Source of the DNA: Haloglycomyces albus DSM 45210
Lineage (GTDB): Bacteria; Actinomycetota; Actinomycetes; Mycobacteriales; Micromonosporaceae
Assembly (NCBI RefSeq): GCF_000527155.1
Contig: NZ_AZUQ01000001.1
Span: 738,554 to 802,553, forward strand
Direction of reading: 5' to 3'
DNA length: 64,000 bases
Position 1 is the stretch's first letter. Each line of letters starts with the position of its first letter. The notes beneath the pieces are model-generated. The model did not search any database. It was given only the letters and a program-made list of their open reading frames with translations, and was not told the origin of the DNA. A program made the translations under genes and the position numbers. Positions 1 to 61,571 of the stretch are shown here, one piece after another.

Positions 1-3968
<3,968 letters not shown>

Positions 3969-4139
3969 AAACCAAAAACAAACAGTTAATGCCGAAAACT
4001 CAACCTGACCACAATAATCCAAAAAATATCGGAATAAAGAAATCAACAGTCATACAAACCAACCAAACAACACCACCACCATGCCCAAACAGACACAACA
4101 ACAGCATCATCCAGCCAGCCCGCACGCTGACTATCCAAA

Positions 4140-4163
4140 CACCCTGTTCAGTTCTCAAACAAC
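4140..4163 (-). promoter_or_regulatory. rRNA leader motif (boxA-like/processing element), rrnA
   Basis: On the minus strand this reads TTGTTTGAGAACTGAACAGG. That resembles the conserved leader element described upstream of 16S in mycobacteria and relatives, thought to take part in antitermination and precursor stem formation. The same element is at 12126-12149 in the second operon, and its core TTGTTTGAGA recurs in both spacers. Confidence 0.6.
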
Positions 4164-4214
4164 ACGCCACAACCAACAACACCACAAAACAGCATCACCA
4201 GCCGAAGCAACCCA

Positions 4215-4931
4215 TTCACAATACCAGAACCAAAATCAACGATCCCTACCGGGGTCTAAATAATTCCGATACCGAATGGTTCGATCATCAACCGCAACAA
4301 CCAATTTCGACCCCGAACGCAGATCCGAAATATTTAAGACCCGTTCGATCCGGTTTAACCGGTTGTCTCGGCGACAAGAACTAATCTACGGTATCTGTTT
4401 CCCGCCAATAAAAACGGGGTCCGTTGCAGTGACCCAGCACTCCATTTATGCGCTTTCGCTGCACAATTCCACCCCAATTAGCCACGCCCGCACTGTGAAT
4501 CAACCGTTACCAATCCATTTCAACGCTCGTTACCAAGCATCCGTTGAACAAAGAATCAATATGTACCCCGTCGGGAACCGATTCAACGTCGGTACGCGGA
4601 GTACCTCACTAAAATCCGCAACCCGCTTCGATGCATCTTGCCCATAGGGCCACATACGCTTACCACATAGTCAAATCCATCTTCCTTGCCAATACTTGAC
4701 AGAAGGTGAGATGATGTCACATTAAGACCAACGTTTAGTAAAGGCTGCCTCTTGGCGCCAGGCAATGTAATGAAACGAGGGTAAGTCCAGTAAGTTGTGC
4801 ACACCGTCTGGACCTCAGTTAGTGGAGCGGCACATCGCCACAAGGCATAGACACAGCCGCGACCCTTCGAATCTTCTCTTGTAACGTGGTAGATGCCGAC
4901 TGGCAAGGAACGAAAGCCGGGTAAGGAGATA
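4215..4931. other. Upstream region of rrnA, shared with the divergent gene at 4932
   Basis: Similarity to the other rRNA operon stops abruptly at 4214. This 717-base stretch should hold the rrnA promoter(s) on minus and the promoter of the gene at 4932 on plus. It is AT-richer than the coding regions. A weak minus-strand candidate promoter is listed separately. I see no convincing gene here. Confidence 0.5.
4383..4411 (-). promoter_or_regulatory. Weak candidate promoter for rrnA
   Basis: The minus strand has TTATTG (4406-4411), a 17-base spacer and TAGATT (4383-4388). The -10 fits TAnnnT and the spacing is ideal, but the -35 is poor. Other weak pairs exist nearby (for example TTAAAC, 16 bases, TAAATA around 4330-4360), so this assignment is tentative. 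Confidence 0.22.
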
Positions 4932-6029
4932 ATGGATAACATTCCAGAAGCGGAGGGACCAATATCGTCGACGGTTCGCCGCTGGCGTCGCCTCGCTACT
5001 CGCCACAACGTGGAATGGAGCGAGCTAGTCCTCATTGCGCTCAATCTCTACGGCCTGCGTGGAACAAACCCCGAAAGTCTTCGTCTACGCCTACTAGCTG
5101 AAGACGATGAGTACTTGACTGTAGTCCAGGCTAATAAGACAACGTCGCCATTCAGCCTACGGGCCCATGTCAGCCCCACCTCACCCCAACACGGTTTGCG
5201 CGAACTTTGTGTAGATGGCACCACTGTCGCCGAGATTATTGATGTAGAACCTTCGGAGACGGTACGTGGGTATCTTCGTGCTAACGGAACCGCCGCAAAC
5301 CTTAACCCGCCCCAGTCGAACGACTATGATCAAATAGTTCAGCATTATCGACAAACGCTTCGTCTTCTCGCACATGAAGCTCCTGAAAGTGACGGTCCCG
5401 AATACATTAAGGAAGTTGCTTTCAATGCTCATGACGACGCGCACGGCGATATGGATTCAGCCGAGGTTGTACTCCATCTGACCGCGCTGCGTGAAGCAAT
5501 GACGTCAGAGGACGTTCCGAACTCCGCGACTATCAGTGTTCTTACTACGGCGTTTGATTCAGATTCCGACTTCCAAGGGATTCGTCAGAAACTTGGCCCA
5601 CTACTACTTCTTGTCGATGTAGACAATCGCATGACCTCGTATCATAGCGAAATAGATGTGGAAACCGCTCTTCCAGAAGCAGAAACACTTGCGAAGACGC
5701 TAAAAGCCGCGTCAGACGCTAATATAGAAACTTCGTTCACGCTCACAGTCGGACATCAGTCACTTAATGTCATCAAAGACTGGATTCTCCCTCTCGCCGA
5801 ACAAACTACAGTGTGGCCGTCACTAACAATTCATCCCGCAGAGACTGCATCCGATGAATCACAACATGTTGCAGCTCCAGATGAACGACTTGATTTCTTT
5901 CTCGAAGCGAGAAAACTCTTCGAACAAATATTTGCACCAACAGGACTTAAACCAGAACCATGGCGCTGTTACAGAGGCCTCTGGTATCGCCAATTCGCCG
6001 GCGAACCTCTGGAAGGTCCTTACGTTTAG
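4932..6029 (+). CDS. Unknown protein between the rRNA operons; C-terminus resembles radical-SAM-fold proteins but lacks the cluster motif
   Basis: I do not recognise a named family for this 365-residue protein. The chosen ATG at 4932 follows AAGGAGAT closely; an ATG at 4893 in the same frame would add 13 residues but has no clear ribosome site. The last 110 residues (a TLTVGHQSL segment, then DERLDFFLEARKLFEQIF and a terminal EPWRCYRGLWYRQF) remind me of the C-terminal part of some radical SAM enzymes. There is no CX3CX2C motif, and only two cysteines occur in the whole protein. If the resemblance is real, this is a non-catalytic relative. No signal peptide or membrane segment is visible. Base composition is clearly more AT-rich than the genes beyond the rRNA operons, which suggests acquisition. 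It is transcribed away from rrnA and towards the end of rrnB. Confidence 0.7.
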   Translation: MDNIPEAEGPISSTVRRWRRLATRHNVEWSELVLIALNLYGLRGTNPESLRLRLLAEDDEYLTVVQANKTTSPFSLRAHVSPTSPQHGLRELCVDGTTVAEIIDVEPSETVRGYLRANGTAANLNPPQSNDYDQIVQHYRQTLRLLAHEAPESDGPEYIKEVAFNAHDDAHGDMDSAEVVLHLTALREAMTSEDVPNSATISVLTTAFDSDSDFQGIRQKLGPLLLLVDVDNRMTSYHSEIDVETALPEAETLAKTLKAASDANIETSFTLTVGHQSLNVIKDWILPLAEQTTVWPSLTIHPAETASDESQHVAAPDERLDFFLEARKLFEQIFAPTGLKPEPWRCYRGLWYRQFAGEPLEGPYV

Positions 6030-6278: not shown

Positions 6279-6300
6279 ATTCACAAATAAAATTAAATTG

Positions 6301-6417
6301 TTTGGCAGCGACCTACTCTCCCACACCCCCACGAGTGCAGTACCATCAGCGCAGAAAGCCTTAACCACCAGGTTCGGAATGGAACTGAGTGTACCCCTCC
6401 CGCACACACCACCAAAC
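6301..6417 (-). rRNA. rrf: 5S rRNA (rrnB)
   Basis: About 117 bases. The plus strand starts tttggcagcgacctactctc, the complement of the standard 5S 3' end, and contains ggttcggaatggaactgagt, the complement of the conserved loop region. It lies about 116 bases after the 23S gene in transcription order. Confidence 0.93.
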
Positions 6418-6533: not shown

Positions 6534-11954
<5,421 letters not shown>

Positions 11955-17270: not shown

Positions 17271-18011
17271 TTGACTGAGGAGGTGCTCACGATCGCACTG
17301 CGCGTCAGCGATTCGGAGAGCGACCGACCTGAAGACCAGGAAGACACCGACCGCGAGGACCGGCCGGAACAATATTCGGGTCGCCACCGTGGTATCGATC
17401 GACTTCGCCAATTCGGACATGTCGGCATTGTCATTGGAGCGGTCGCACTGCTGCTCATTGTGGGTGGCGGTGTGATGTGGTGGCTGATCGACCCGAACGA
17501 CGGGACTCCCGATGTGGTGGCCGCCGAGATCGGTGACGTGTGCTCGGCGGCGGTGGACGAAGAACGCTTTCAGACGTGGGTTCCGACGGAGGAACCACTG
17601 GTGGAACCCACCACGACCTCCGGTGAGGACTCGGAGGGCTTTGACTGCATGTACTCCGCCGAGTCCGAGAACGAGGAGATTTGGCGGAAACTGACCGTAT
17701 TCAGCGCCGTTGAGGTATTTCCTCGCTCCGATAAGGCGCAACGCGCCTACAGCGGCCTGAAGGAGATCGAAGCGGCGGAAGGTCGCGAGACGACGGAATT
17801 GTCGGGCGGAAAACACCGAGACGAGGTCGTTCTGTCCCATACCGAAGATGACGCACAGCAGCATTGGCGCTGGATCGCGCTGAGCGGAAACGCCACCGTC
17901 TCGATTCATGTCACTCTGAGCGGTATGGAACCGGAAGACGACTCCGGCGAGGATCTGTCCGCTGCGGTTGGGAAAGAAATCATCTCCGCTCTCCCACGCG
18001 ACAATGGTTGA
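17271..18011 (+). CDS. Membrane-anchored exported protein, DUF3558-like layout
   Basis: A 246-residue protein with a TTG start (AAAGAG about 9 bases upstream; the start is uncertain). It has an acidic, charged cytoplasmic N-terminus of about 60 residues, one membrane helix (VIGAVALLLIVGGGVMWWL, about 60-80) and an exported domain with two cysteines (GDVCSAAVDE and GFDCMYSAE). The next gene has the same plan, including the WW pair at the membrane exit and the two-cysteine domain, so the two look like distant paralogues. The layout recalls actinobacterial DUF3558-type exported proteins, but I am not sure of membership. Role unknown. Confidence 0.72.
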   Translation: MTEEVLTIALRVSDSESDRPEDQEDTDREDRPEQYSGRHRGIDRLRQFGHVGIVIGAVALLLIVGGGVMWWLIDPNDGTPDVVAAEIGDVCSAAVDEERFQTWVPTEEPLVEPTTTSGEDSEGFDCMYSAESENEEIWRKLTVFSAVEVFPRSDKAQRAYSGLKEIEAAEGRETTELSGGKHRDEVVLSHTEDDAQQHWRWIALSGNATVSIHVTLSGMEPEDDSGEDLSAAVGKEIISALPRDNG

Positions 18012-18285
18012 ACGCGGCGGTTTAAGCTAAGACCATTGGAATCTTTTTCAGATAAGTCGAGGTCGCCAAAGGTAACAATGCCGACACGATCTCGGGATGG
18101 AGTCTCCTTGGATCGGCAAGCTTCGAAGGGAGGCCCGACGGTATCTCGGCAGGACGCCATAGGAACCGCCTCGGTTCCAGTGACCATGCCAAGCCGACGG
18201 CCACCCGCCCAATGACCACGGACGAGTCCATAACGCTATAGACCAACGCCACTCACGCGACAACGCAATCTTGTGGAGGAAAATT

Positions 18286-19491
18286 GTGAGCTCTCCATCG
18301 TCTTTCAATTCGCCACAGCAGCCACCTAGGCGGCCACGACCCGGGGACAGTTCGGAAGATCGTTGGAACTCTCCATCTGCGCAGTATCCTCCGGTCGGAG
18401 GCAATATCCGCCCCGACCACCAGTCGCAAGCACAGCCGGGATATCCCAACGCCGGTGGGCAACCACAGCCGGGCGCTGGGGCCTGGAACGGAAACCCCGG
18501 CCGACCCGCCCCGGGACGGCCACAGGCCGGCGCGCCGTCCGCCGGTGGACAGCCTCAGGCCGGCTTCGGAAATTCGGATCCCTCCCGGCCACAACCGCAG
18601 GTTGGCCGTCCACAAGCCGGATGGCAATCGCCCAACCCCAATAACTACGGTCGACAACAACCGGCCGCGGGCGGACGGCCCGAGCCGACCAGCCCGACTC
18701 CGCCGCCGTCCGGGCCCCGGGGGACGCCTCCGCCCTCCCCGGCATCACAGCCGTTTGAAGAACGAGCCTTCGACGATCACACAGTGGACGACTGGTCGAC
18801 AAAAGAACACACACAGGTCATCGGCAAGCTTGGCTACCTTCCTAAAGAGGACCGCCAACCAGGATCGTCTCGGCGCCGGGGCCGCGAAAACGACACGCGA
18901 GCCTGGAAACGCGCCAAGAAGGGCAATCCATTCGCCAAAGCGGCAGTGATTCTCCTGGTTCTAGCCGTCGTCGGTGGCGGTGCGTGGTGGTATCTATCGC
19001 AAGAGGAAGAACAACCCGAAGAAGTTGAGGGTCTCAGTCTCGCCGATGACTCCTGCTCGTACGTCGACGGCGCCCCACTAAGCGATGTGGTGAATTTGGA
19101 CCAACGGGAGGTGTCCACCGAAAACGTCGACTCCGATGGCGAGGAACAGACGTGTGTCGTCGCCTTTGGAGACCTCGAAAGCGCCTACGCTCAGGTAACA
19201 ACGGTGGCGAGTCTGCACAGCTCCCCTGGTTCCGCCGAGGTAAGGCTGTCCTATAAATCCGATATGGACGAAAACGGCGCTTGGGAGAGCGTGGACACCG
19301 GGCAGGACGACAGCGTCGCTTACTACGCCCCCGCCGAGTCGGGCGATTCAGCTAATTACCAGCTGTTCATGGTGCACGACAACGCCATTCTGAATGTGCA
19401 ACTCTATGTCACTCGCGCTGACAGCTCTGTGGAGGACTTGGCGACCTGGGCCGAAGAAATAGCGAACTCGTATCTGTCCGAATGGGACTAG
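18286..19491 (+). CDS. Pro/Gly/Gln-rich membrane-anchored exported protein
   Basis: A 401-residue protein. The GTG at 18286 is favoured by GGAGGA 5 bases upstream; an upstream TTG at 18271 lacks such a site. The first 130 residues are disordered and rich in Pro, Gly and Gln with PQAG-type repeats. A basic patch (RAWKRAKKGNPFAK-like) and one membrane helix follow near residues 215-235 (VILLVLAVVGGGAWWYL). The exported domain of about 160 residues has two cysteines (DDSCSYVDG, EEQTCVVAFGD). The topology mirrors that of the gene before it. Such Pro-rich cytoplasmic tails plus an exported domain are common in actinobacterial envelope proteins, but no function can be assigned. A strong terminator follows. 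Confidence 0.75.
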   Translation: MSSPSSFNSPQQPPRRPRPGDSSEDRWNSPSAQYPPVGGNIRPDHQSQAQPGYPNAGGQPQPGAGAWNGNPGRPAPGRPQAGAPSAGGQPQAGFGNSDPSRPQPQVGRPQAGWQSPNPNNYGRQQPAAGGRPEPTSPTPPPSGPRGTPPPSPASQPFEERAFDDHTVDDWSTKEHTQVIGKLGYLPKEDRQPGSSRRRGRENDTRAWKRAKKGNPFAKAAVILLVLAVVGGGAWWYLSQEEEQPEEVEGLSLADDSCSYVDGAPLSDVVNLDQREVSTENVDSDGEEQTCVVAFGDLESAYAQVTTVASLHSSPGSAEVRLSYKSDMDENGAWESVDTGQDDSVAYYAPAESGDSANYQLFMVHDNAILNVQLYVTRADSSVEDLATWAEEIANSYLSEWD

Positions 19492-19852
19492 AAAACGAGT
19501 TATACAAAGCGACGGATAACCGTCCTGTGAGCGGCCAGGCCGACGGTCCGCGACACCGTCGATCATTGATGCCTCGGGTCGACCTCATCACACGGTAGTG
19601 CAGCAATCAGGTCGCAAGACGACATGCCGCATTCGGTGCCAGGGCGAATAATCGACCGGAGAGCCGAGGGCCGGGCGCGTAGCGCCCGGCCCTCGGCTCT
19701 TTTTTATGTCGTATGAGTCGGTGCGGCATAAGCCCGGACGGCATGAGTCCGTGCGATATGAACCCGCACACTGTCCGCCCAGGTGGTGTCGAGTAGGTCC
19801 GTATTACGGCGTTCCTCGATACGCATCTCTCGAACCGCGCTACGGCACCGGC
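19492..19852. other. Convergent intergenic region
   Basis: About 360 bases between two convergent genes. The only clear element is the terminator at 19661-19705. Open frames here are not convincing. Confidence 0.4.
19661..19705 (+). terminator. Strong terminator after the gene at 18286
   Basis: A perfect 18-base GC-rich stem (19661-19678 with 19682-19699), 3-base loop and a run of six T. It is oriented for the plus-strand gene, and the stem could also stop minus-strand transcripts from the eccE operon. Confidence 0.9.
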
Positions 19853-22012
19853 TTAATACGTCCGCATTGGCTGCCCGAACATCTGCAACTCCATATTCGT
19901 CGGAGCGGTCCACAGATATTTCTCCTTCGAACCGGTCCGCAACATCGCCATCATGTCGTCCTTCAACGCCTGGAACAACTGCAGTACATCATGGCTGACG
20001 CGCAGATGTCGACGTGCGATGGCGGACTCCTCCGCCGTCAGACGTTGCAGCACGGTCATTTCCGCCTTCTGCGCTTCGGGAGGAAAGAAATTCGTCAAGC
20101 GAGGAAAGACGGTCAATTGCGTACGCCACGGCCCCAATACCGGCTGTGTCCTCGGTCCGGTCTCCCCGACGTCGTATACGAACAGCGCCGGCTGGTGCTG
20201 CGAGGCCTCGATCGTCACCGGTTGGTCTCCGTGTAGCACGGCCATCCGGTCTTGCCGGTTGGTGGCCCATTCTCCCAAGCGGTCCCATTCCTGCGGGCGG
20301 TTCGTACACACCGCTACACGGGTGCCGAGAGCGAGCGCACGAAAGACCAGGAGGCGCGCTAGATACACCCCACCGATGAGATTGATATGGGTGGTCTCCG
20401 GCCGGAAGAACGGCGCGACGACCGGGGAATGCTCGGCATCCTTGCCGATGACCAATCCCGCCTGTGGGCTGGCACTGGTGAGGAGTTCCAGTGCCGCGGC
20501 AGTGGGAAGTTGGGGTGCGGGGCGAATCGAGTCGACCGGCTGACCGGCATCGTCGATGGTCTCCACGGCACGGTCGGTGACCGGAAGTCCGTATACCGTT
20601 CCTTCCGATGGCCCCGTGGTGACCTGCTCGATTCCGAACAGTTCCGCGGACGCGGGAACGGCGCTGAACGACGCACCCGACATGGGGACCCCGGAATACG
20701 GTTGCGCCGACATGGGCTGCCCTGACATCGGTTGTCCTGACATCGGCTGCGCGGAGACCGGTTGCCCTGACACCTGCTGTCCCGAAACCGGTTGCCCGGA
20801 GACCGGTTGGGCCGAAACGGGCTGCCCGGAGATCGGCTGTCCTGAAATCGGTTGGGCCGAAACAGGTTGAGCCGATACCGGAGCGGCGGATACGGGGGCC
20901 GCGGCCCCAGCGGATCCAGATCCGTTGCCGGGAGGGGCACTTGTCGGAGTCGAACCGGTTTGCGGTTCCTCACGTTTCGGACCCGAGCCGCTCGTCTGAG
21001 GGTGCGACGGCGGCTGCGACGCGGCGGGTGGGACCGGTGCGGCGCCTCCGTGAGCAGGTGGAGGTGCTGGACGTTGCGCCTCGGGACGCGGCGGCGGTGG
21101 CTGCTGTCCTTGGGGTGGGCGTGCCTGTCCGGCCGTCCCGTTCTGGTTATTGGGAGGCTGCGGTCGGGCTGAACCCTGTTGCGGTGTCCCTTGTTGCGGT
21201 GTCCCTTGTTGCGGCGCGCCTTGCTGTGGAGCACCTTGGTGCTGTGGAGGAGCCGGACGTGCTGGAGGTCCTGAACCGGGGCGCTGTCCGGTGGACGCTT
21301 GTCCTTGATTCGGCGGAGGTTGGTTCTGAGGCCGCTGCGGTTGTGGTTGCAAGCCCTGTGGACTGGCCTGCTGTCCGGCCCCTGGAGCGCCCTGTTGCCC
21401 TTGATTCGGTTGCCGACCCGACGCCGGTGCCGGCCGCTGTGCCGATTGTGGGGGTGAGTTCGGCGGCGCGGCAGGAGGTTGTTGCCCACCACGGGCGGGT
21501 GGACGTTCGGAAGCGGCCGATTGCGGTGCACCCGCACGCGGATTTGCCTGGCCGGTACGCGGTGGTGGCTGCGATTGGGGTGGTTGCGCCCGGCCCGCAC
21601 CGGTTTGCGGATTGCCTGGCTGGCGTTGCGGCGGCTGTTGCCCGGCAGCAGGCGGATTGACCTGCGCGCCTCCTCGTGCGGGTGGTGCCGGTGGGGGGTT
21701 CTGTTGTGGGCGGTTTTGGGGTGGGCGCTGACCGGTGGCGGGACGGTTTTGCGGCGGTTGTTGTCCCGCGGCCGGAGGTTGTTGTCCCCGAGCGGGTGGT
21801 TGAGATCCGGGTGGTGGGGCCTGACGGTATTCCATTGAATGGCGCCCTACTTTGGCGGTTCCGGTAGCCTCCTCCTCGTCGCGGCGTTCCGGTTCGCCGT
21901 TGGCAGGGGGCGGCTGCTGGGCCGGTCGACGGCCGTAAGCGTTTCCCGGCGGTTGAGCCCGGCCTCGACCACGGTCGTTGTCCGGCTGCTGCGGGTTGTC
22001 GCGGTTACTCAT
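19853..22012 (-). CDS. Pro/Gln-rich repeat protein translationally coupled to eccE (type VII locus)
   Basis: A 719-residue protein. Residues 1-350 are disordered and dominated by Pro, Gln, Gly and Ala. Residues about 370-450 are a run of near-perfect five-residue units of the form (V/I/M)S(A/G)QP. The last 270 residues look folded, with a conserved-looking segment ETTHINLIGGVYLARLLVFR and a hydrophobic, strand-rich character, but no known catalytic motif. There is no signal peptide or clear membrane helix. The ATG overlaps the eccE stop (ATGA), so the two products are probably made together. By context it is a cytosolic accessory factor of the secretion system. I recall similar eccE-linked proteins in related actinobacteria but cannot name a family. 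Confidence 0.85.
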   Translation of the reverse strand: MSNRDNPQQPDNDRGRGRAQPPGNAYGRRPAQQPPPANGEPERRDEEEATGTAKVGRHSMEYRQAPPPGSQPPARGQQPPAAGQQPPQNRPATGQRPPQNRPQQNPPPAPPARGGAQVNPPAAGQQPPQRQPGNPQTGAGRAQPPQSQPPPRTGQANPRAGAPQSAASERPPARGGQQPPAAPPNSPPQSAQRPAPASGRQPNQGQQGAPGAGQQASPQGLQPQPQRPQNQPPPNQGQASTGQRPGSGPPARPAPPQHQGAPQQGAPQQGTPQQGTPQQGSARPQPPNNQNGTAGQARPPQGQQPPPPRPEAQRPAPPPAHGGAAPVPPAASQPPSHPQTSGSGPKREEPQTGSTPTSAPPGNGSGSAGAAAPVSAAPVSAQPVSAQPISGQPISGQPVSAQPVSGQPVSGQQVSGQPVSAQPMSGQPMSGQPMSAQPYSGVPMSGASFSAVPASAELFGIEQVTTGPSEGTVYGLPVTDRAVETIDDAGQPVDSIRPAPQLPTAAALELLTSASPQAGLVIGKDAEHSPVVAPFFRPETTHINLIGGVYLARLLVFRALALGTRVAVCTNRPQEWDRLGEWATNRQDRMAVLHGDQPVTIEASQHQPALFVYDVGETGPRTQPVLGPWRTQLTVFPRLTNFFPPEAQKAEMTVLQRLTAEESAIARRHLRVSHDVLQLFQALKDDMMAMLRTGSKEKYLWTAPTNMELQMFGQPMRTY
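20660..20900 (-). repeat. 15-base tandem repeat (pentapeptide-coding)
   Basis: About sixteen 15-base units inside the preceding gene encode (V/I/M)S(A/G)QP. Units vary mainly at the first and third codons, so both the DNA and the protein are repetitive. Copy number may vary between strains. Confidence 0.8.
21173..21235 (-). repeat. Short 15-base tandem repeat (PQQG(A/T)-coding)
   Basis: Four adjacent 15-base units (plus strand ccttgttgcggtgtc-like) encode PQQGA/PQQGT in the disordered half of the same protein. Confidence 0.75.
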
Positions 22013-23262
22013 CGAGGTCCTCCTCCGGTGGGCGCGGAGGCATAGGCCGCTGGGCCTTGCTCTCCGTCAAAACGTTGTAGCTTCACACCGAGGTCGTCAG
22101 CAACGTTCAGGACTTGGTTCTGAGCCGAATCCCACGATGTTTCATCCAGCGCGACACGGACGATCGCATCGATGGCCAGCTGTTTACCGGTGACCCGACC
22201 GTCGGCGCTGACTTGTCCGCCCTCCGTGCCGGTCACGATCAATGACACGGTCGTGTAAACGGCGGGTACCGCGGCGAACGCGTCCACGACCTGTCGCAGG
22301 CTCTGTGGGTCGGACGGCCATTGGGTAATGCGATAGCTGACGTGGCGCAAACCGTCGGCGTACCAATGGTCCCAATCCTCCATCGTGCGCTCACCCTGTA
22401 CGGGAGCGAAGGCCACACCCAACGACTGCTGCAGGGCGTTTTGCACACCCTCGGCGTTGAGAATACGGTTCGGGATACCGATGTTGGCCAAAAGCTTACT
22501 GACTCGCTGTGTGGCGGCGGTCAGTCCTTTAATCGCCCCTTCGGGTCCCCCACCACGATCGTCGGAAATGGAAAGACCGTCGCCGACGCCCAGGCGCACG
22601 GCCAGCCAGGCTTTGTGGTGGATGACGACGGGGGTGTTTCCCAACAGTTCCCGGTACGACTGTGCCGCAGGGTTGTTCGAGTACGCGGCCAGACCGACGG
22701 GAGTGGTGTGTCCGACCAGTTGGAGGGACGTTACCGGAGTCGTCGAACCGTCGAAGAGTCGTTCCAGTCGTTCCAGGGGGATCTCTTGGATCACGTCGTC
22801 GGTGGCGTTGATCTGAATGATGGTGAACCAGCCACCGGCGTCCTGGCCGAATCCGACGGACTCATCGCGCACCTCGACACCTTTGACACCGAGATCGGGG
22901 GCGATACGGTGCAATACATCGGTGTGCTGCTGTGGGTCGAGACTGTAGACACGGCGGCGGAGACGGCGCTTCAATGGAATCGTCTGGTACCACCAACGAT
23001 CCCCACTGCGCAACAACATGGTCACCACGAGAACCAGAGCGATTCCGCTCCCTACCGCCAAGTGTATGAGACCCAGCTGAAGCCCACCCACGACCAGTAG
23101 GGCCGCCAGTTCGAATATAACGAGCTGTGCGAGAGTCAAGGGCCCCAATCGACCCGATCCACGTGCGGTGAATGAGACCGCGCGTGGATCCACCTCGTCG
23201 CTTGCGTCAGCGGATACCACGGCCCGCCCGAGCGCCTGTTGTTGTGATTCCATAATGGTCAT
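22009..23262 (-). CDS. eccE: Type VII secretion protein EccE
   Basis: A 417-residue EccE-type component, peripheral to the EccBCD membrane complex. Two hydrophobic helices lie near residues 40-85 (LAQLVIFELAALLVVGG; IHLAVGSGIALVLVV), followed by DRWWYQTIPLKRR, the typical exit from the membrane. A cytosolic domain of about 320 residues follows. An alternative start three codons later (MESQQQ) is possible. The gene is divergent from mycP across 187 bases that contain a pair of direct repeats, and its stop overlaps the start of the next gene. EccE and mycosin neighbouring each other is common in ESX loci. The other core genes are at 58.6-64 kb. Confidence 0.85.
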   Translation of the reverse strand: MTIMESQQQALGRAVVSADASDEVDPRAVSFTARGSGRLGPLTLAQLVIFELAALLVVGGLQLGLIHLAVGSGIALVLVVTMLLRSGDRWWYQTIPLKRRLRRRVYSLDPQQHTDVLHRIAPDLGVKGVEVRDESVGFGQDAGGWFTIIQINATDDVIQEIPLERLERLFDGSTTPVTSLQLVGHTTPVGLAAYSNNPAAQSYRELLGNTPVVIHHKAWLAVRLGVGDGLSISDDRGGGPEGAIKGLTAATQRVSKLLANIGIPNRILNAEGVQNALQQSLGVAFAPVQGERTMEDWDHWYADGLRHVSYRITQWPSDPQSLRQVVDAFAAVPAVYTTVSLIVTGTEGGQVSADGRVTGKQLAIDAIVRVALDETSWDSAQNQVLNVADDLGVKLQRFDGEQGPAAYASAPTGGGPR

Positions 23263-23449: not shown

Positions 23450-24772
23450 ATGCGCAGCGCTTCACTATCCTCCCCAGGGAAGGTCGCCGTCATTCTGGCA
23501 ACGGCGGTCTTGGCGATCATGACGCCGTCGTCCCAAGCCGCGGCACTACCTATGGCTCCTGAAGAATTCGACACGGACACCGATTGGGGCGAAGAATACG
23601 AAGTTCCCTGCGACCCGGCAACGGGTGAGGAACCGGAGCTCAAGGAGACTCCCTGGCCACAGCAGAATATGAATCTCGATTTGATCCACTCCCAGAACAC
23701 CGGATTGAAAGAAGACGGGGACCCGGTTAAAGTCGCCATCATCGATTCCGGAGTCAATCCGCATCCAACGTTGGGAGACCAGGTCAACGAGTTTATGGAC
23801 CCCTGGGACGACTCCGAGGATGGGCTCTGCGACAGCGTTGGCCATGGCACCGCTGTCGCCGGAATTATCGCCGGGGGGCATGACGACACCCGCTTTATGG
23901 GGATCGCGCCCGACGCCGAAATCTATTCCTTCCGCCTCTTCCCCGAAGACATCACCGACGCAGACCCAAAGATCTCCGCCAGCATGGCCTGGGCCATCCA
24001 CACCGCAATAAACAAAGAGGTGGATGTCATCAATATCTCTATTACTGCGGTATCCCAACACGAGTTGAAGGACGCGGTAGATCGCGCCTGGGACGAAGGG
24101 ATCCCGATTGTCGCCTCAACCGGCAACAACGGTATGAACATGCAGTACGCCGCCGAGCTGGGTAATCCCGACGACATCGTGTATCCAGCCCACTATGACA
24201 AGACCATAGCGGTGACCTCGTACGACGAAGAAGGCTACTGGGACGAGGGCAATTTTGGGACGACCGTGGACATTATGGCGCCTGGCAACGATGTGCATCT
24301 CCCCGCCCCCGAAGGCGACGGTTACTACACCAGCCGAGGAACGTCGTTTGCGACCCCCTTTGTTACCGGCGCGGTCGCTCTGTTGATCGGAAAGTTCGGT
24401 GACAAGGCGACACCGGGATGGATCAAGGATCGCTTGATCAGTACCACTTCGGCGGCGCCCGGCGGCTTCGAAGATTGTTCCGGCTGCGGCCACAACGCCT
24501 TTCAGGGGCACGGCGCCCTCAATATTCACCGCGCGCTAACGGCCATCGGAGATTACGGTGAGTTCAGTCCGGGAGAAAACGAGAACACCGCGATTCATGC
24601 GGACGGTCAGCTCATGGGTGAGATTCCCGCTCCGGTGGACCAATGGAAATCGGAACGGGACGTCGCTTACATGGTGATGATAGGCAGCGTTCTGGCGATC
24701 GCCGTGATCTATGCGCTTGTGAAGGTCATTCCCAGCGGACGGCGACGCGGGTGGAAACCCGGCGAATCGTGA
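23450..24772 (+). CDS. mycP: Mycosin, subtilisin-like protease of the type VII system
   Basis: A 440-residue S8 serine protease. A Sec signal peptide covers about residues 1-30 (VAVILATAVLAIMTPSSQAAA). The triad is visible: Asp99 in AIIDSGV, His132 in GHGTAVAGI and Ser299 in GTSFATPFVTG; the oxyanion Asn lies in STGNNG. A Pro-Trp-Pro stretch and an acidic N-terminal extension precede the catalytic core, as in mycosins. A C-terminal helix (VMIGSVLAIAVIYALVKVI) and a basic tail anchor it in the membrane, facing outward. Mycosins stabilise the ESX membrane complex and process some substrates. It is divergent from eccE and convergent with the ATPase gene. Confidence 0.93.
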   Translation: MRSASLSSPGKVAVILATAVLAIMTPSSQAAALPMAPEEFDTDTDWGEEYEVPCDPATGEEPELKETPWPQQNMNLDLIHSQNTGLKEDGDPVKVAIIDSGVNPHPTLGDQVNEFMDPWDDSEDGLCDSVGHGTAVAGIIAGGHDDTRFMGIAPDAEIYSFRLFPEDITDADPKISASMAWAIHTAINKEVDVINISITAVSQHELKDAVDRAWDEGIPIVASTGNNGMNMQYAAELGNPDDIVYPAHYDKTIAVTSYDEEGYWDEGNFGTTVDIMAPGNDVHLPAPEGDGYYTSRGTSFATPFVTGAVALLIGKFGDKATPGWIKDRLISTTSAAPGGFEDCSGCGHNAFQGHGALNIHRALTAIGDYGEFSPGENENTAIHADGQLMGEIPAPVDQWKSERDVAYMVMIGSVLAIAVIYALVKVIPSGRRRGWKPGES

Positions 24773-24831: not shown

Positions 24832-25971
24832 TTATAGATACTGCCCCACGTGTTGTTGGGGAATGGTCGCCTCATGCGTCTGGCTCGCACCCGTCTTGCG
24901 GGCATAGAGCTCGGCCAGCGTCATGGGGCGGGTGACCGTCTGTCCCTCAAGCCATTGGGACGCTTCACTCTTGGACAGTTCTCCCACTTCGATCTGCGCC
25001 AAGCACCGTCCCGGACGCACCACGGCCGGATGAAGTCGGTCAAGTCGTTCGTTCGTTGTGATCGCCACGAGGATTTCGCGCCCCTGCCCCAGGAGCCCGT
25101 CGGTGAGGTTCAGCAGACGAGAAAGCGCCTGCCCGGCCGATTCCTTGGCCTCACCGCGAATGAGTTCATCGCAGTCTTCGATGATCATCAAGCGCCATTT
25201 ACGCGGCTGCTGTTCTTCCGGCGGTGCGAAGGGAAGTTCCTGATCGGCACCCACGACGACGTCCATCAGATATGACGGGTCGGTGAAGAAGGCTTCCGGG
25301 TCCAATACGGTGTCCACCTGACACCAATCCGACCATTCCCGTGCCAAGGATCGCAGCGCCGTGGTCTTCCCCGTCCCGGGGGGACCGTGAAGTAGCAGCA
25401 AGCGACCTGTGACGTCCGACGAACGGGTCTTCATGAGAGAGCTCAACGCCTCTTTGGAAGAGGCGGAGTAATTCTCCTGAATATCGTCCCAAGCGGGTGA
25501 CGTAATGGTTCGGTTCGAGCGGAACGGGCCGCGCGCCGAGCGGTACCAGAAACCCATGTCCACCGCGTCGGCGGCGGGTTCTTCCACCACTCCGACCTCA
25601 GAGGTGAATTCGGTGAGTTCCTTCACCAGTTCCTCGGTCTCAGCGGTGATGAGAACCTGGCTCGATCCGTCCTTCCAACGCATGGTCCGCAGAGTCCACT
25701 GCGGCCCCTCGACCAGCTGCACCGATACCTGTCCGACGACGGACCGAAGCAGCTTACCCCCCTCCGGAATCAGGTCGGTGTCGTTCTCCACTCCCTGTAG
25801 GTTCTTAATCACCGCATACGGTTCCGCTCCCGCGGCGAACTTCTGCAGGCTGAGCAGATTGAGTACGTGTGCGGGATCATCGGTACCTTCGAGGCTGAAG
25901 CGCAAGTGTCCGATACCTGAGTCATTCAGCAACATATTGATGAAATCACCGCGCTGTTCGATCAAAGTCAT
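24832..25971 (-). CDS. AAA+ ATPase beside the mycosin gene
   Basis: A 379-residue ATPase. Walker A is GPPGTGKTTALRSLAREW near residue 195 and Walker B is LMIIEDCDE near 255; RPGRC near 325 looks like the arginine-finger/sensor region. The N-terminal 170 residues are a separate domain without visible TPR repeats, so it is not a standard EccA. The arrangement recalls actinobacterial AAA proteins annotated with DUF5925, from memory. It is soluble. It is convergent with mycP and possibly co-transcribed with a short frame upstream. A role in type VII substrate handling is an inference from position only. Confidence 0.85.
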   Translation of the reverse strand: MTLIEQRGDFINMLLNDSGIGHLRFSLEGTDDPAHVLNLLSLQKFAAGAEPYAVIKNLQGVENDTDLIPEGGKLLRSVVGQVSVQLVEGPQWTLRTMRWKDGSSQVLITAETEELVKELTEFTSEVGVVEEPAADAVDMGFWYRSARGPFRSNRTITSPAWDDIQENYSASSKEALSSLMKTRSSDVTGRLLLLHGPPGTGKTTALRSLAREWSDWCQVDTVLDPEAFFTDPSYLMDVVVGADQELPFAPPEEQQPRKWRLMIIEDCDELIRGEAKESAGQALSRLLNLTDGLLGQGREILVAITTNERLDRLHPAVVRPGRCLAQIEVGELSKSEASQWLEGQTVTRPMTLAELYARKTGASQTHEATIPQQHVGQYL

Positions 25972-58611: not shown

Positions 58612-60153
58612 TTAATCGTCGTTGTCGTCCTGTTGATTGAGCTCGGAGTTGAAGTCGTCGCTGGACAGGGTCGGATTGATCTGCCGCCGTGCTTCCACCG
58701 GGTCCAGGTCCGCCCCATTGTTGATGAGGTTCAAATACACGTCCGGCACCTCGGTTACCATGCTCTCGTCGTAACCGAGTCGGGACATGGTTCCGCCCGC
58801 GATCCCTTCGCTGTCAACCAGACCGTATTTAACGCCGATCTCGTCGATCAAGAAGGTATTGGATTTCAAGGTCTGTCCGGGAAGCTGAGTCTCCATGGCC
58901 AAAACGGCTTTACTACCCTCAATGACCAGGTTGGCCGGTGCTCCGTTGGGAAGCTCGCCATTGAACTCATCGGTGGCCAGATTGTCGGCGGCCTCCCGTA
59001 GGGTCTCCGGCGCACGCTCGAACACGCCGATGTTGATCCGCTGCTCTTCCACGTCTTCACCCGGGCTGAAGATACCGCAGACCGCGGGTTGACCGCCGTC
59101 CAGTTTGACGGCTTCGCCGAGTTCCTGTGGCATGCCGGCCTTTTCCACTTCACCGTCGGTGCCGAGGTCGGTCAACGTGGCTCGACTGATCTCGCTCGCT
59201 TCCCCGAAGGCGTACTCAGAAGCCAGTAGAGCCTGGCTGACCGCGCCGATGGGAGCGAAGGTCGCCCCTCCCGAACCGTCGGGAACCAGTGCATAGTAGT
59301 TGTCGTCCGAGGTCACCACACTGCCGAATTTGAGCTCCGCACCGTCGACCTCTACTCCGGAATCCTTACTCAGCGAAGGAACGTCGGGATGTTCCAGGTC
59401 GGGGCCCGCTTCCACGGCGTCGATCCAGTGTTCGCGCACCTCCACGATGTTGTCCTCATTGATGTGCAGACCGCCGATCGTCTCCGGATCGACGATTTCA
59501 TGCCGGAGACCGTTGGCGATGAGGAAAAGCCGCTCCTCCGCGCTGCGGACGACGAGCCAATCCTGACCGTCGATCCAGGTGTCCGGTTCGGGTAGGTCCT
59601 TGATCCCCAGTTGGAGCAGGGAGGTGTCGGTGTCCGGCCGCGCCGGCATGTTGCAGAGGTTCCAGTCGGAGTTCTTCAGAATCTGGTCCTCAGTGGGCGG
59701 ACTGCTGGGCGCGCCCACGATTCCCACTTGCCAACCGCGCGGAATGTGGGAGAAGGATTCCGGCTTCAGCCGTTGCACATTGGGTTGTCCCCCGGTGTCT
59801 TCCACCATCAGCAGGGCCGAGGTGTAGTTCTGCACCTCGAACAGGAGGCCGCCCTCTTCCTCGGTGTCCACACTCTCCGGCGGTTTCATGTAGACGTAGA
59901 CGGTATTGGACTCTTTATCGATGATGATCGAGCCAAGCTGCGGTTCGTCGCGCCCCTTGTCCAACATGGCGACGATGACGAAGATACCGAGGATCACGGC
60001 CATGATGGCGACCGAGGCCAGGATCGAAACCCCGATACGCCGCATGGGGCGTTCCAGGGAGTCTGGGCTGCCGAGCAGGAGGGCCAGGTTCATACGGGTC
60101 GTGGTGAACTTGTGCGCCTCTACCTGTTCGCGCCGCGAGCGTAGTTGTGCCAT
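58612..60153 (-). CDS. eccB: Type VII secretion protein EccB
   Basis: A 513-residue EccB. The ATG at 60153 gives the standard MAQLRSRREQVEAHKFTTTRMNLALL-type N-terminus, preceded by AGGTGAG; an upstream start is unlikely. One membrane helix near 45-70 (ILASVAIMAVILGIFVIVAML) precedes a large periplasm-side domain of repeated beta modules (GSIIIDKESNTVYVYM). EccB caps the EccBCDE membrane pore and stabilises the mycosin. It is 11 bases downstream of eccD and probably co-transcribed. Confidence 0.94.
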   Translation of the reverse strand: MAQLRSRREQVEAHKFTTTRMNLALLLGSPDSLERPMRRIGVSILASVAIMAVILGIFVIVAMLDKGRDEPQLGSIIIDKESNTVYVYMKPPESVDTEEEGGLLFEVQNYTSALLMVEDTGGQPNVQRLKPESFSHIPRGWQVGIVGAPSSPPTEDQILKNSDWNLCNMPARPDTDTSLLQLGIKDLPEPDTWIDGQDWLVVRSAEERLFLIANGLRHEIVDPETIGGLHINEDNIVEVREHWIDAVEAGPDLEHPDVPSLSKDSGVEVDGAELKFGSVVTSDDNYYALVPDGSGGATFAPIGAVSQALLASEYAFGEASEISRATLTDLGTDGEVEKAGMPQELGEAVKLDGGQPAVCGIFSPGEDVEEQRINIGVFERAPETLREAADNLATDEFNGELPNGAPANLVIEGSKAVLAMETQLPGQTLKSNTFLIDEIGVKYGLVDSEGIAGGTMSRLGYDESMVTEVPDVYLNLINNGADLDPVEARRQINPTLSSDDFNSELNQQDDNDD

Positions 60154-60164
60154 GTAATTCTCAC

Positions 60165-61571
60165 CTAACCCTTGATCGCGAGGCCCCACATGTACCAGCC
60201 CGCCATCCAGCCGGTGAGCGGGATCAAGGACACGATCATCAGGGCCTCAAAGATATCGAGCATACGGCCATAGGTCGGGGGCAGTTTCTTGCCGGACACG
60301 GCCAGTCCGTACCCCATGGTGATGACGGTCAACAGAACCAAGGCACCCAGGACGGCCACCAACTTGATCAGAAGGGACCCGGCCACGAAGATCGCCGCCA
60401 GGGTCGCTCCCAGTCCACCGAGACCGGCGGCCATGACCGCGAGTCGGGCCGAATACGTTTCGATCGTCCGCGCCCGGCTCAGGAGAATCAACGAGATCAC
60501 CGTCGCCAGAATCAAACCGGGGAGCTTCCCGGAGAACGCGAGAGTGAGAGCGGAAACGAATCCCACCACGGCCACAAAGGCGTACATCGCGGCGAGGAAG
60601 TTCCCCGCGTACTGGCTGAGTTGGAGGATCTTCTTGCCGTCGACGTTCTCTTCCCCGGCGCTCTTCAGTTCGTCGCTGGTGTTGGGGAGCGTGGGCACGG
60701 GAACCTTCGCCATTCCCAGGGCGAATTTGGGTGCGAAGGGAATCAGGCTGAGCGCCAGCGCCGCCGCGATGGAGGCGGCCAGGGCCGCGTCGCCGCCTTC
60801 CCCGAAGAGCATCTTGACTCCCACGCTGATGCCGAGCACCAAAGCGGAGAAGATCGTGGTCACGAAGACGGGGGCGGAACTCATGGTTCCGATCGCCACG
60901 ATGCCGATCACCGAATACAGCACCACGACCGAGGCCACCATGAACAGGTGTGGTTCTCCGAGCTCGAAGAGCGAGTGATCGCCCGCCAGGATGAGGAGCC
61001 CACCCACGGCTCCGTAGCAGACACCCGTGATCCCGAAGTACGTCGCCGCTCGTGCCTCACCGACGGCGCGGGAGAGAATGGCCGCCACCCCGATCAGAAC
61101 GATTCCGGCCCCCAGGGCCGTGGTCGCTCCCGGGAAGTGCGGCGGACCGGCCAGCAGCACCGCGAGCGCCCCCGTGCACAGGGCAATGGTGCCGAGCGCG
61201 GTGGCGAATCGTTTGGTGGCCTTGTGGTTCCACTTGTCCGTGCGTGCTTCGGTGGCGGTGGCGATGGCGTCGATGACGTCGTCGAAGACGACTTCGGGCT
61301 TCGCCGAGTTGGCCGGGTTGAGATAAAGTATGTCGCCGTCGTGAACGGCGAGTTGAGAACAGGACTGACCCATGTCGATCGGGTCGTCTCCGAGGCGGCT
61401 GAGAATCCAGCCTCCGCTGTCCAGTGCCTCGTCGATGTAGTACTCCCCGGCTTGTTGAAGGACGGTGGGGAGCATGTCGGCCATTGGCACGTCCGAAGGC
61501 AATGCCAGGTCGATACGACTGCGTGGGCTGATAATGGTGACCCTAGTGAGAGTCGCCGATTGGCTGCTCAC
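60165..61571 (-). CDS. eccD: Type VII secretion protein EccD
   Basis: A 468-residue EccD. The GTG start has GGAGGT 8 bases upstream. Residues 1-100 are the ubiquitin-like domain (LTRVTIISPRSRIDLALPSD; DDPIDMGQSC). About 11 hydrophobic segments follow between 135 and 465 and form the membrane barrel that lines the pore. It heads the eccD-eccB unit and is divergent from eccC across about 560 bases. Confidence 0.94.
   Translation of the reverse strand: MSSQSATLTRVTIISPRSRIDLALPSDVPMADMLPTVLQQAGEYYIDEALDSGGWILSRLGDDPIDMGQSCSQLAVHDGDILYLNPANSAKPEVVFDDVIDAIATATEARTDKWNHKATKRFATALGTIALCTGALAVLLAGPPHFPGATTALGAGIVLIGVAAILSRAVGEARAATYFGITGVCYGAVGGLLILAGDHSLFELGEPHLFMVASVVVLYSVIGIVAIGTMSSAPVFVTTIFSALVLGISVGVKMLFGEGGDAALAASIAAALALSLIPFAPKFALGMAKVPVPTLPNTSDELKSAGEENVDGKKILQLSQYAGNFLAAMYAFVAVVGFVSALTLAFSGKLPGLILATVISLILLSRARTIETYSARLAVMAAGLGGLGATLAAIFVAGSLLIKLVAVLGALVLLTVITMGYGLAVSGKKLPPTYGRMLDIFEALMIVSLIPLTGWMAGWYMWGLAIKG

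Follow-up and report, generated by a model that had tools for sequence, protein, structure and literature searches.

What is encoded by the gene whose start codon lies within the stop codon of eccE in Haloglycomyces albus DSM 45210? The question touches on EccE itself, which is, to our knowledge, the sole core membrane component of the type VII secretion system (T7SS) without known ancestry or function. In the window analyzed here (the whole stretch of 64,000 nucleotides, to which all positions refer unless a contig is named), a first-pass annotation had placed the start of this gene inside the eccE stop codon, and the ATGA shared by eccE and the 719-residue ORF at 19853-22012 on the minus strand bears this out (Table 1). 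We propose that this partner gene is probably the second half of EccE: a dead motor lobe of the VirB4 type, coupled and tethered to the EccE platform.

Table 1. Positions of the eccE-partner unit, its sequence features, and the other T7SS genes of the window
Feature	Position	Strand	Basis or remark
EccE partner gene (719 aa; Pro/Gln-rich tail and putative pseudo-ATPase C-terminal domain)	19853..22012	(-)	ATG start
eccE (417 aa; two TM helices and a cytosolic domain)	22009..23262	(-)	TIGR03923, E 3e-34; PF11203, 5e-17
Stop/start overlap ATGA (eccE TGA and partner ATG)	22009..22012	(-)	kept in relatives
Shine-Dalgarno GGAGGAGG of the partner gene, within the C-terminal Gly codons of eccE	22019..22026	(-)	6 nt 5' of the ATG
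Disordered, variable Pro/Gln-rich tail (residues 1-516)	20465..22012	(-)	composition, pLDDT, tail lengths in relatives
Pentapeptide repeat array SGQPV/SAQPI/SGQPM	20684..20890	(-)	TRF, 15-nt period, called at 20699-20881
Folded C-terminal domain, CTD (residues 517-719)	19856..20464	(-)	AF2 pLDDT 81; Foldseek against PDB, FtsK/HerA/VirB4
Degenerate Walker A position, Gly547-Gly-Val-Tyr550 in place of GK[ST]	20363..20374	(-)	profile alignment to the EccC Walker A
Asp614 at a strand end (ALFVYD), Walker-B-like place	20171..20173	(-)	at least 90% conserved, no Glu after it
Terminator-like hairpin, 20-bp stem, 3' of the two-gene unit	19658..19702		
mycP, mycosin-type subtilase, divergent from eccE	23450..24772	(+)	PF00082, 2e-41
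eccB, 36 kb from eccE	58612..60189	(-)	TIGR03919
eccD	60165..61571	(-)	TIGR03920

The eccE and partner genes constitute a two-gene unit bounded by the divergent mycP, which matches TIGR03921 at 1e-60, yet under the curated cut-off of that family, and by the terminator-like hairpin. The genome (3.5 Mb) carries a single EccE and a single EccC over cut-off, eccC (contig C1:802127-804700) lying just beyond the right edge of the window near eccB and eccD. The T7SS genes are split in this genome, with mycP, eccE (22009-23262), and the partner standing 36-40 kb apart from eccB/eccD (58612-61571) and eccC. The C-terminal part of the partner ORF has the codon-position GC of a translated actinobacterial gene (66/46/74%). 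The partner shows no NCBIfam match to the EccE domain (TIGR03923) and represents an extra C-terminal domain; the idea that its CTD duplicates the domain of EccE itself was discarded (hhalign probability 0.2).

This domain is conserved in dozens of genera: among 61 genomes from its own family and order, a single-sequence search recovered it in 43, and a class-wide sample of 297 genomes yielded it in 45 by profile search. In that sample, all 16 EccE-bearing genomes of one large genus, presumably Streptomyces, also possess it. The named loci come from a profile set of closer relatives and are biased to these, the distant ones being covered by the class-wide profile search. EccE lies directly upstream on the same strand in 107 of 138 CTD locus rows and shares one reading frame with the CTD in 22; in the 9 rows with no EccE the locus or contig stops short, and 4 of these could be completed from longer loci or from the window. 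These rows include repeat fetches, the distinct cases amounting to about 80 separate and 18-19 fused, as counts uncorrected for phylogeny. The two-gene state is seen in Glycomycetaceae, the presumed Streptomyces, and many Micromonosporaceae, and the fused state in others; nocardia-like EccE proteins and the long ones of mycobacteria have a shorter CTD. Every CTD-bearing locus with enough flank has EccE, and none places the domain away from it; therefore, the possibility that homologues lie mostly apart from eccE fails, and the pairing that the first-pass annotation had suggested checking proves to be conserved. On genetic grounds, being consistently adjacent or fused to eccE, a core gene of the system, the partner qualifies as a T7SS component. 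The earlier suggestion of a new type VII component tied to EccE is thus supported, by adjacency or by the presence of the CTD within the EccE polypeptide in many actinobacteria: it is probably a conserved, previously undescribed subunit or domain of a known export machine, fused to EccE in some species.

The nucleotide sequence at the junction points to selection for coupled translation of the two genes. In 75 of the 80 distinct separate cases the EccE stop and the partner start overlap or touch, 57 by a -4 overlap (ATGA/GTGA) and 18 by TGATG/TAATG. Within the last eight residues of EccE, glycine is encoded by GGA in half of the cases (106/211), as against 6% (184/2843) in the rest of the protein, and a GAGG-containing purine run falls within the last 24 nucleotides before the stop in 65/80; therefore, the Gly-rich C-terminus of EccE doubles as the ribosome-binding site of its partner. 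The fixed stoichiometry with EccE that had been deduced from this coupling holds as 1:1 in the fused forms, and for the separate genes it would follow by inference.

Between EccE and the CTD lies a tail that ranges from 8 to 606 residues across relatives. In the window its composition (23% P, 17% Q, 13% A, and 13% G over residues 1-480) and its S-[AG]-Q-P-[VIM] array, which TRF calls as some 12 tandem copies of a 15-nt unit, confirm the Pro/Gln-rich half with pentapeptide repeats noted at first. Treating that half as the core of the protein was mistaken, as it is variable and often absent in relatives: long Pro/Gln/Ala-rich tails occur in Glycomycetaceae, Stackebrandtia, and many Micromonosporaceae, the tail is 12-95 residues in the presumed Streptomyces, and the fused EccE-CTD proteins have no P/Q tail, with a linker mostly of 8-40 residues. 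The repeats are thus a lineage-specific linker or tether rather than the working part, and the Pro/Gln tail would act at most in that capacity. A Pfam keratin match on the repeat was rejected as compositional. Near the N-terminus of the tail, several genera share a G-R-H-[SHAY] motif (here VGRHSME, 21828-21848, about residues 55-61), often followed by an acidic run; it occurs in 27 of 44 tails against a shuffled mean of 1.1, many of the matches coming from one genus, and is a possible docking motif.

The CTD found no family match in Pfam, NCBIfam, or PDB sequences, and T-cell receptor chains and adenosylhomocysteinase, which surfaced in sequence searches, were dismissed as chance matches. An AlphaFold2 model of residues 480-719, built from 21 sequences (pLDDT 81, pTM 0.78), falls under a pLDDT of 50 for the greater part of residues 480-516 and reaches 83-93 over the folded part. 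As the latter spans about residues 517-719, the folded C-terminus initially put at 270 residues is indeed present but has a length of about 205. In a Foldseek search of the PDB, the model retrieved FtsK (6t8g, E 3e-4), STIV B204, HerA, and VirB4 (4ag5/4ag6), with the EssC ATPase (4lya) further down the list; the top ten had probabilities of about 1.0 and TM-scores near 0.5. The CTD is hence predicted to contain a RecA-like core of the FtsK/HerA/VirB4 superfamily, and these profile and structure searches, which the first-pass annotation had recommended, gave no match to a known unrelated enzyme. Active members of this superfamily need the Walker A motif GxxxxGK[ST]. None of 60 CTD homologues has it, and the catalytic Glu after the Walker B Asp is absent, though the Asp itself is kept. 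By these motifs the CTD is a pseudo-ATPase, which has presumably lost ATP binding.

What, then, of the EccE domain to which it is joined? A model of the EccE of the window (pLDDT 72, 16 sequences) retrieved EccE3 (6umm) first, as a positive control (E 1.6e-8), followed by TrwK/VirB4 (7o43, 4e-6, probability 1.0) and EccE5. The motor-only VirB4 entries 4ag5/4ag6, which are present in the CTD list, are absent from that of EccE; from this and the chain lengths, the EccE match was therefore taken to be the N-terminal platform of VirB4. Accordingly, EccE is predicted to fold like the N-terminal region of VirB4 (TrwK), with the VirB4 segment deduced in this way and not from residue ranges, which Foldseek did not give. 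The likeness is structural only: at the sequence level, neither EccE nor SCO6880 was linked to the VirB4 N-domain in the PDB. The TrwK structures (2022-2024) are later than the ESX-3 structure paper. A different likeness was drawn there, the cytoplasmic domain of EccE3 being described as weakly similar to glycosyltransferases, and EccE3 as contacting EccD but not EccC or EccB directly (PMC6986878).

A comparable pair exists outside T7SS, in the SCO6880-SCO6881 genes of actinobacterial T4SS-like loci, where an EccE-like protein is likewise followed by a motor-type protein. EccE and the SCO6880 family are homologous over 373 columns, along the length of SCO6880, in a profile comparison (probability 99.7, E 1.7e-26). 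Of 12 genomes examined, 11 have as the gene after SCO6880 a P-loop ATPase that has kept its Walker A, and the family of this ATPase matches VirB4 (4ag5) at 7e-20. In the scanned SCO6880 loci a VirD4/TraG coupling protein gene comes after the VirB4-like ATPase. Since SCO6880 is followed by a live VirB4-type motor, the order of an EccE-like and a VirB4-motor-like component recurs in a T4SS-type locus. The SCO6881-like proteins differ from the CTD in their retained Walker A, their strong match to VirB4, and the adjoining VirD4/TraG gene. The idea that SCO6880 bears a CTD at its own C-terminus was rejected, as it ends with the EccE domain. The H. albus genome has such a locus itself (contig C1:2525500-2535000, locus positions 1484-5035), in which genes of the VirB4 ATPase and VirD4 types follow an SCO6880-type EccE homologue. 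This SCO6880-type protein matches Pfam EccE over the cut-off (7e-8); therefore, proteins of both T4SS and T7SS may be gathered under the EccE label in public annotations.

Profile comparison connects the CTD to the same motors. Against the VirB4-like ATPase next to SCO6880, the CTD profile scored 33.1 in hhalign, compared with a maximum of 22.3 in 100 column shuffles and 14.8 for the reversed profile; this alignment covers the C-termini of the two, and a fainter, collinear second one sets the GK[ST] of the ATPase on the Gly-Val-Tyr of the CTD. The likeness to any single motor family is weak, with an hhalign E of about 1e-3 for one template and 0.014 for a control profile, and E-values of 0.001-0.005 between the CTD and motor families are alone no proof of homology. 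When the CTD set of close relatives was compared directly with the ATPase set, no significant match emerged; the signal came from the more diverse sets only. Given this weak sequence signal, the fold assignment rests on the model from 21 sequences and TM-scores near 0.5.

These uncertainties leave room for other origins of the domain. It could be a degenerate ATPase domain of EccC, or of another FtsK-type protein, that was recruited beside EccE, its VirB4 likeness being a coincidence of a common fold. EccC does belong to the same superfamily, EssC and FtsK also appear in the CTD Foldseek list, and profile alignment places the CTD on the Walker A region of EccC ATPase 3 at a score of 25.1, which none of 60 shuffles reached (maximum 24.5). 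However, this signal is the weaker one and fell with a more diverse profile, while that of the SCO6880-adjacent VirB4-like ATPase rose, and EccE is itself VirB4-like in its platform and related to SCO6880, whose locus repeats the gene order; we thus consider an EccC-related origin unlikely. Alternatively, the CTD might be a real EccE domain of another alpha/beta fold, on which modelling has imposed an artefactual FtsK/VirB4 likeness. The faint sequence signal and modest TM-scores would accommodate this, but the high pLDDT of the folded part, the occupation of the entire top of the PDB list by one superfamily, and the collinear fall of the weak profile alignments on that same family make it quite improbable.

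Function offers further alternatives. The first-pass annotation had offered as one option a cytosolic scaffold or chaperone for substrates, which could deliver Esx proteins to EccE/EccC in the manner of EspG or the Pro-rich EspI. The latter, encoded in an ESX locus, combines a Pro-rich N-terminus with an NTPase-like C-terminus whose P-loop is of the ParA type. Pro-rich tails suit scaffolding and the gene sits in a T7SS locus; yet many species build the domain into EccE itself through a short linker, many homologues have no tail, and the model predicts a RecA domain of the motor kind, apparently an inactivated one of the FtsK/VirB4 type. The CTD shows no ParA/MinD-type P-loop NTPase domain: it has no Walker A and finds its structural matches in FtsK/HerA/VirB4. 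As nothing favors a chaperone, we regard this role as very improbable. That the CTD still hydrolyses ATP or GTP at some atypical nucleotide site is scarcely credible: the Walker B strand still ends in its Asp, and two adjacent Gly occupy the P-loop position, but GK[ST] is missing in 60/60 homologues, no Glu follows the Asp, and no NTPase profile matches.

We accordingly return to the partner as the probable second half of EccE. VirB4/TrwK combines an N-terminal platform with a C-terminal RecA-like motor, and EccE plus CTD would fit it in order and predicted folds, with a weak sequence signal; unlike VirB4/TrwK, they are encoded by two genes (or fused), the motor is apparently inactive, and the setting is a T7SS. 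EccE would furnish two TM helices and a VirB4-N-domain-like platform, and its partner, made via translational coupling, a dead VirB4-type motor lobe that the species-variable Pro/Gln-rich tail would tether to EccE. The lobe might dock on EccE as the VirB4 C-domain does on its N-domain and, so placed, could help position or gate EccC/EccD with no ATP hydrolysis. The CTD would then serve the T7SS membrane complex as a structural lobe that packs on EccE and does not hydrolyse ATP.

Beyond this, we entertain, more tentatively, the possibility that EccE as a whole is a relic of a VirB4-type T4SS ATPase, in which the N-domain platform persists and the motor is left as the inactive lobe of the partner, is reduced in the long mycobacterial EccE, and is gone from EccE3 and EccE5. 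The EccE of the window matches the EccE families, as do EccE3 (ESX-3) and EccE5 (ESX-5), and the CTD, where it occurs, is coupled or fused to EccE; the PDB chains of EccE3 and EccE5, which align up to positions 377-391 of a 571-position fused profile, have no CTD. In mycobacteria and nocardia-like genomes, the long EccE proteins (560-620 aa) have it joined on at the equivalent point behind the EccE domain, with only its N-terminal half clearly recognizable and the C-terminal helices missing. At four mycobacterial loci, the long EccE terminates in a reduced stretch resembling the CTD (GSAGVLVGE...) that a profile barely detects, the best E being 0.005.

Apart from a 2024 study of CoCoNuT systems, we found no prior description in the open-access literature of an EccE with a VirB4 or pseudo-ATPase domain or of the CTD in T7SS. 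The accessible text of that study describes operons associated with CoCoNuT, outside T7SS, in which a VirB4-like ATPase carries a fused EccE3-like domain; there, the ATPase is not described as inactive, no T7SS context is given, and an EccE of T7SS bearing a VirB4-type domain is not discussed (PMC11090510). Our observations hint that a part of an export machine shares its design with DNA-transfer machines. If EccE is indeed a VirB4 relic, type VII and type IV secretion would share a second component besides the EccC-type motor, and EccE would gain both a testable ancestry and a live sister pair, SCO6880/SCO6881, for comparison. As the current ESX structures come from systems whose EccE is devoid of the CTD, a conserved pseudo-ATPase lobe on EccE elsewhere in actinobacteria would make them views of a reduced machine.

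Several further features of the window surround the two-gene unit. Two single-TM proteins with Pro-rich or acidic N-termini (17271-18011 and 18271-19491) are encoded convergently with the partner gene, and their position is conserved in Glycomyces, Stackebrandtia, and Actinorhabdospora. On the other side, a DUF5925-AAA ATPase (24832-25971) adjoins mycP in convergent orientation. The first 12 kb contain identical long repeats about 7.98 kb apart, along with junk ORFs, because two minus-strand rRNA operons, one of them cut by the window edge, lie there (1-1693, 2434-3968, 6300-6416, 6534-9670, and 10420-11954).
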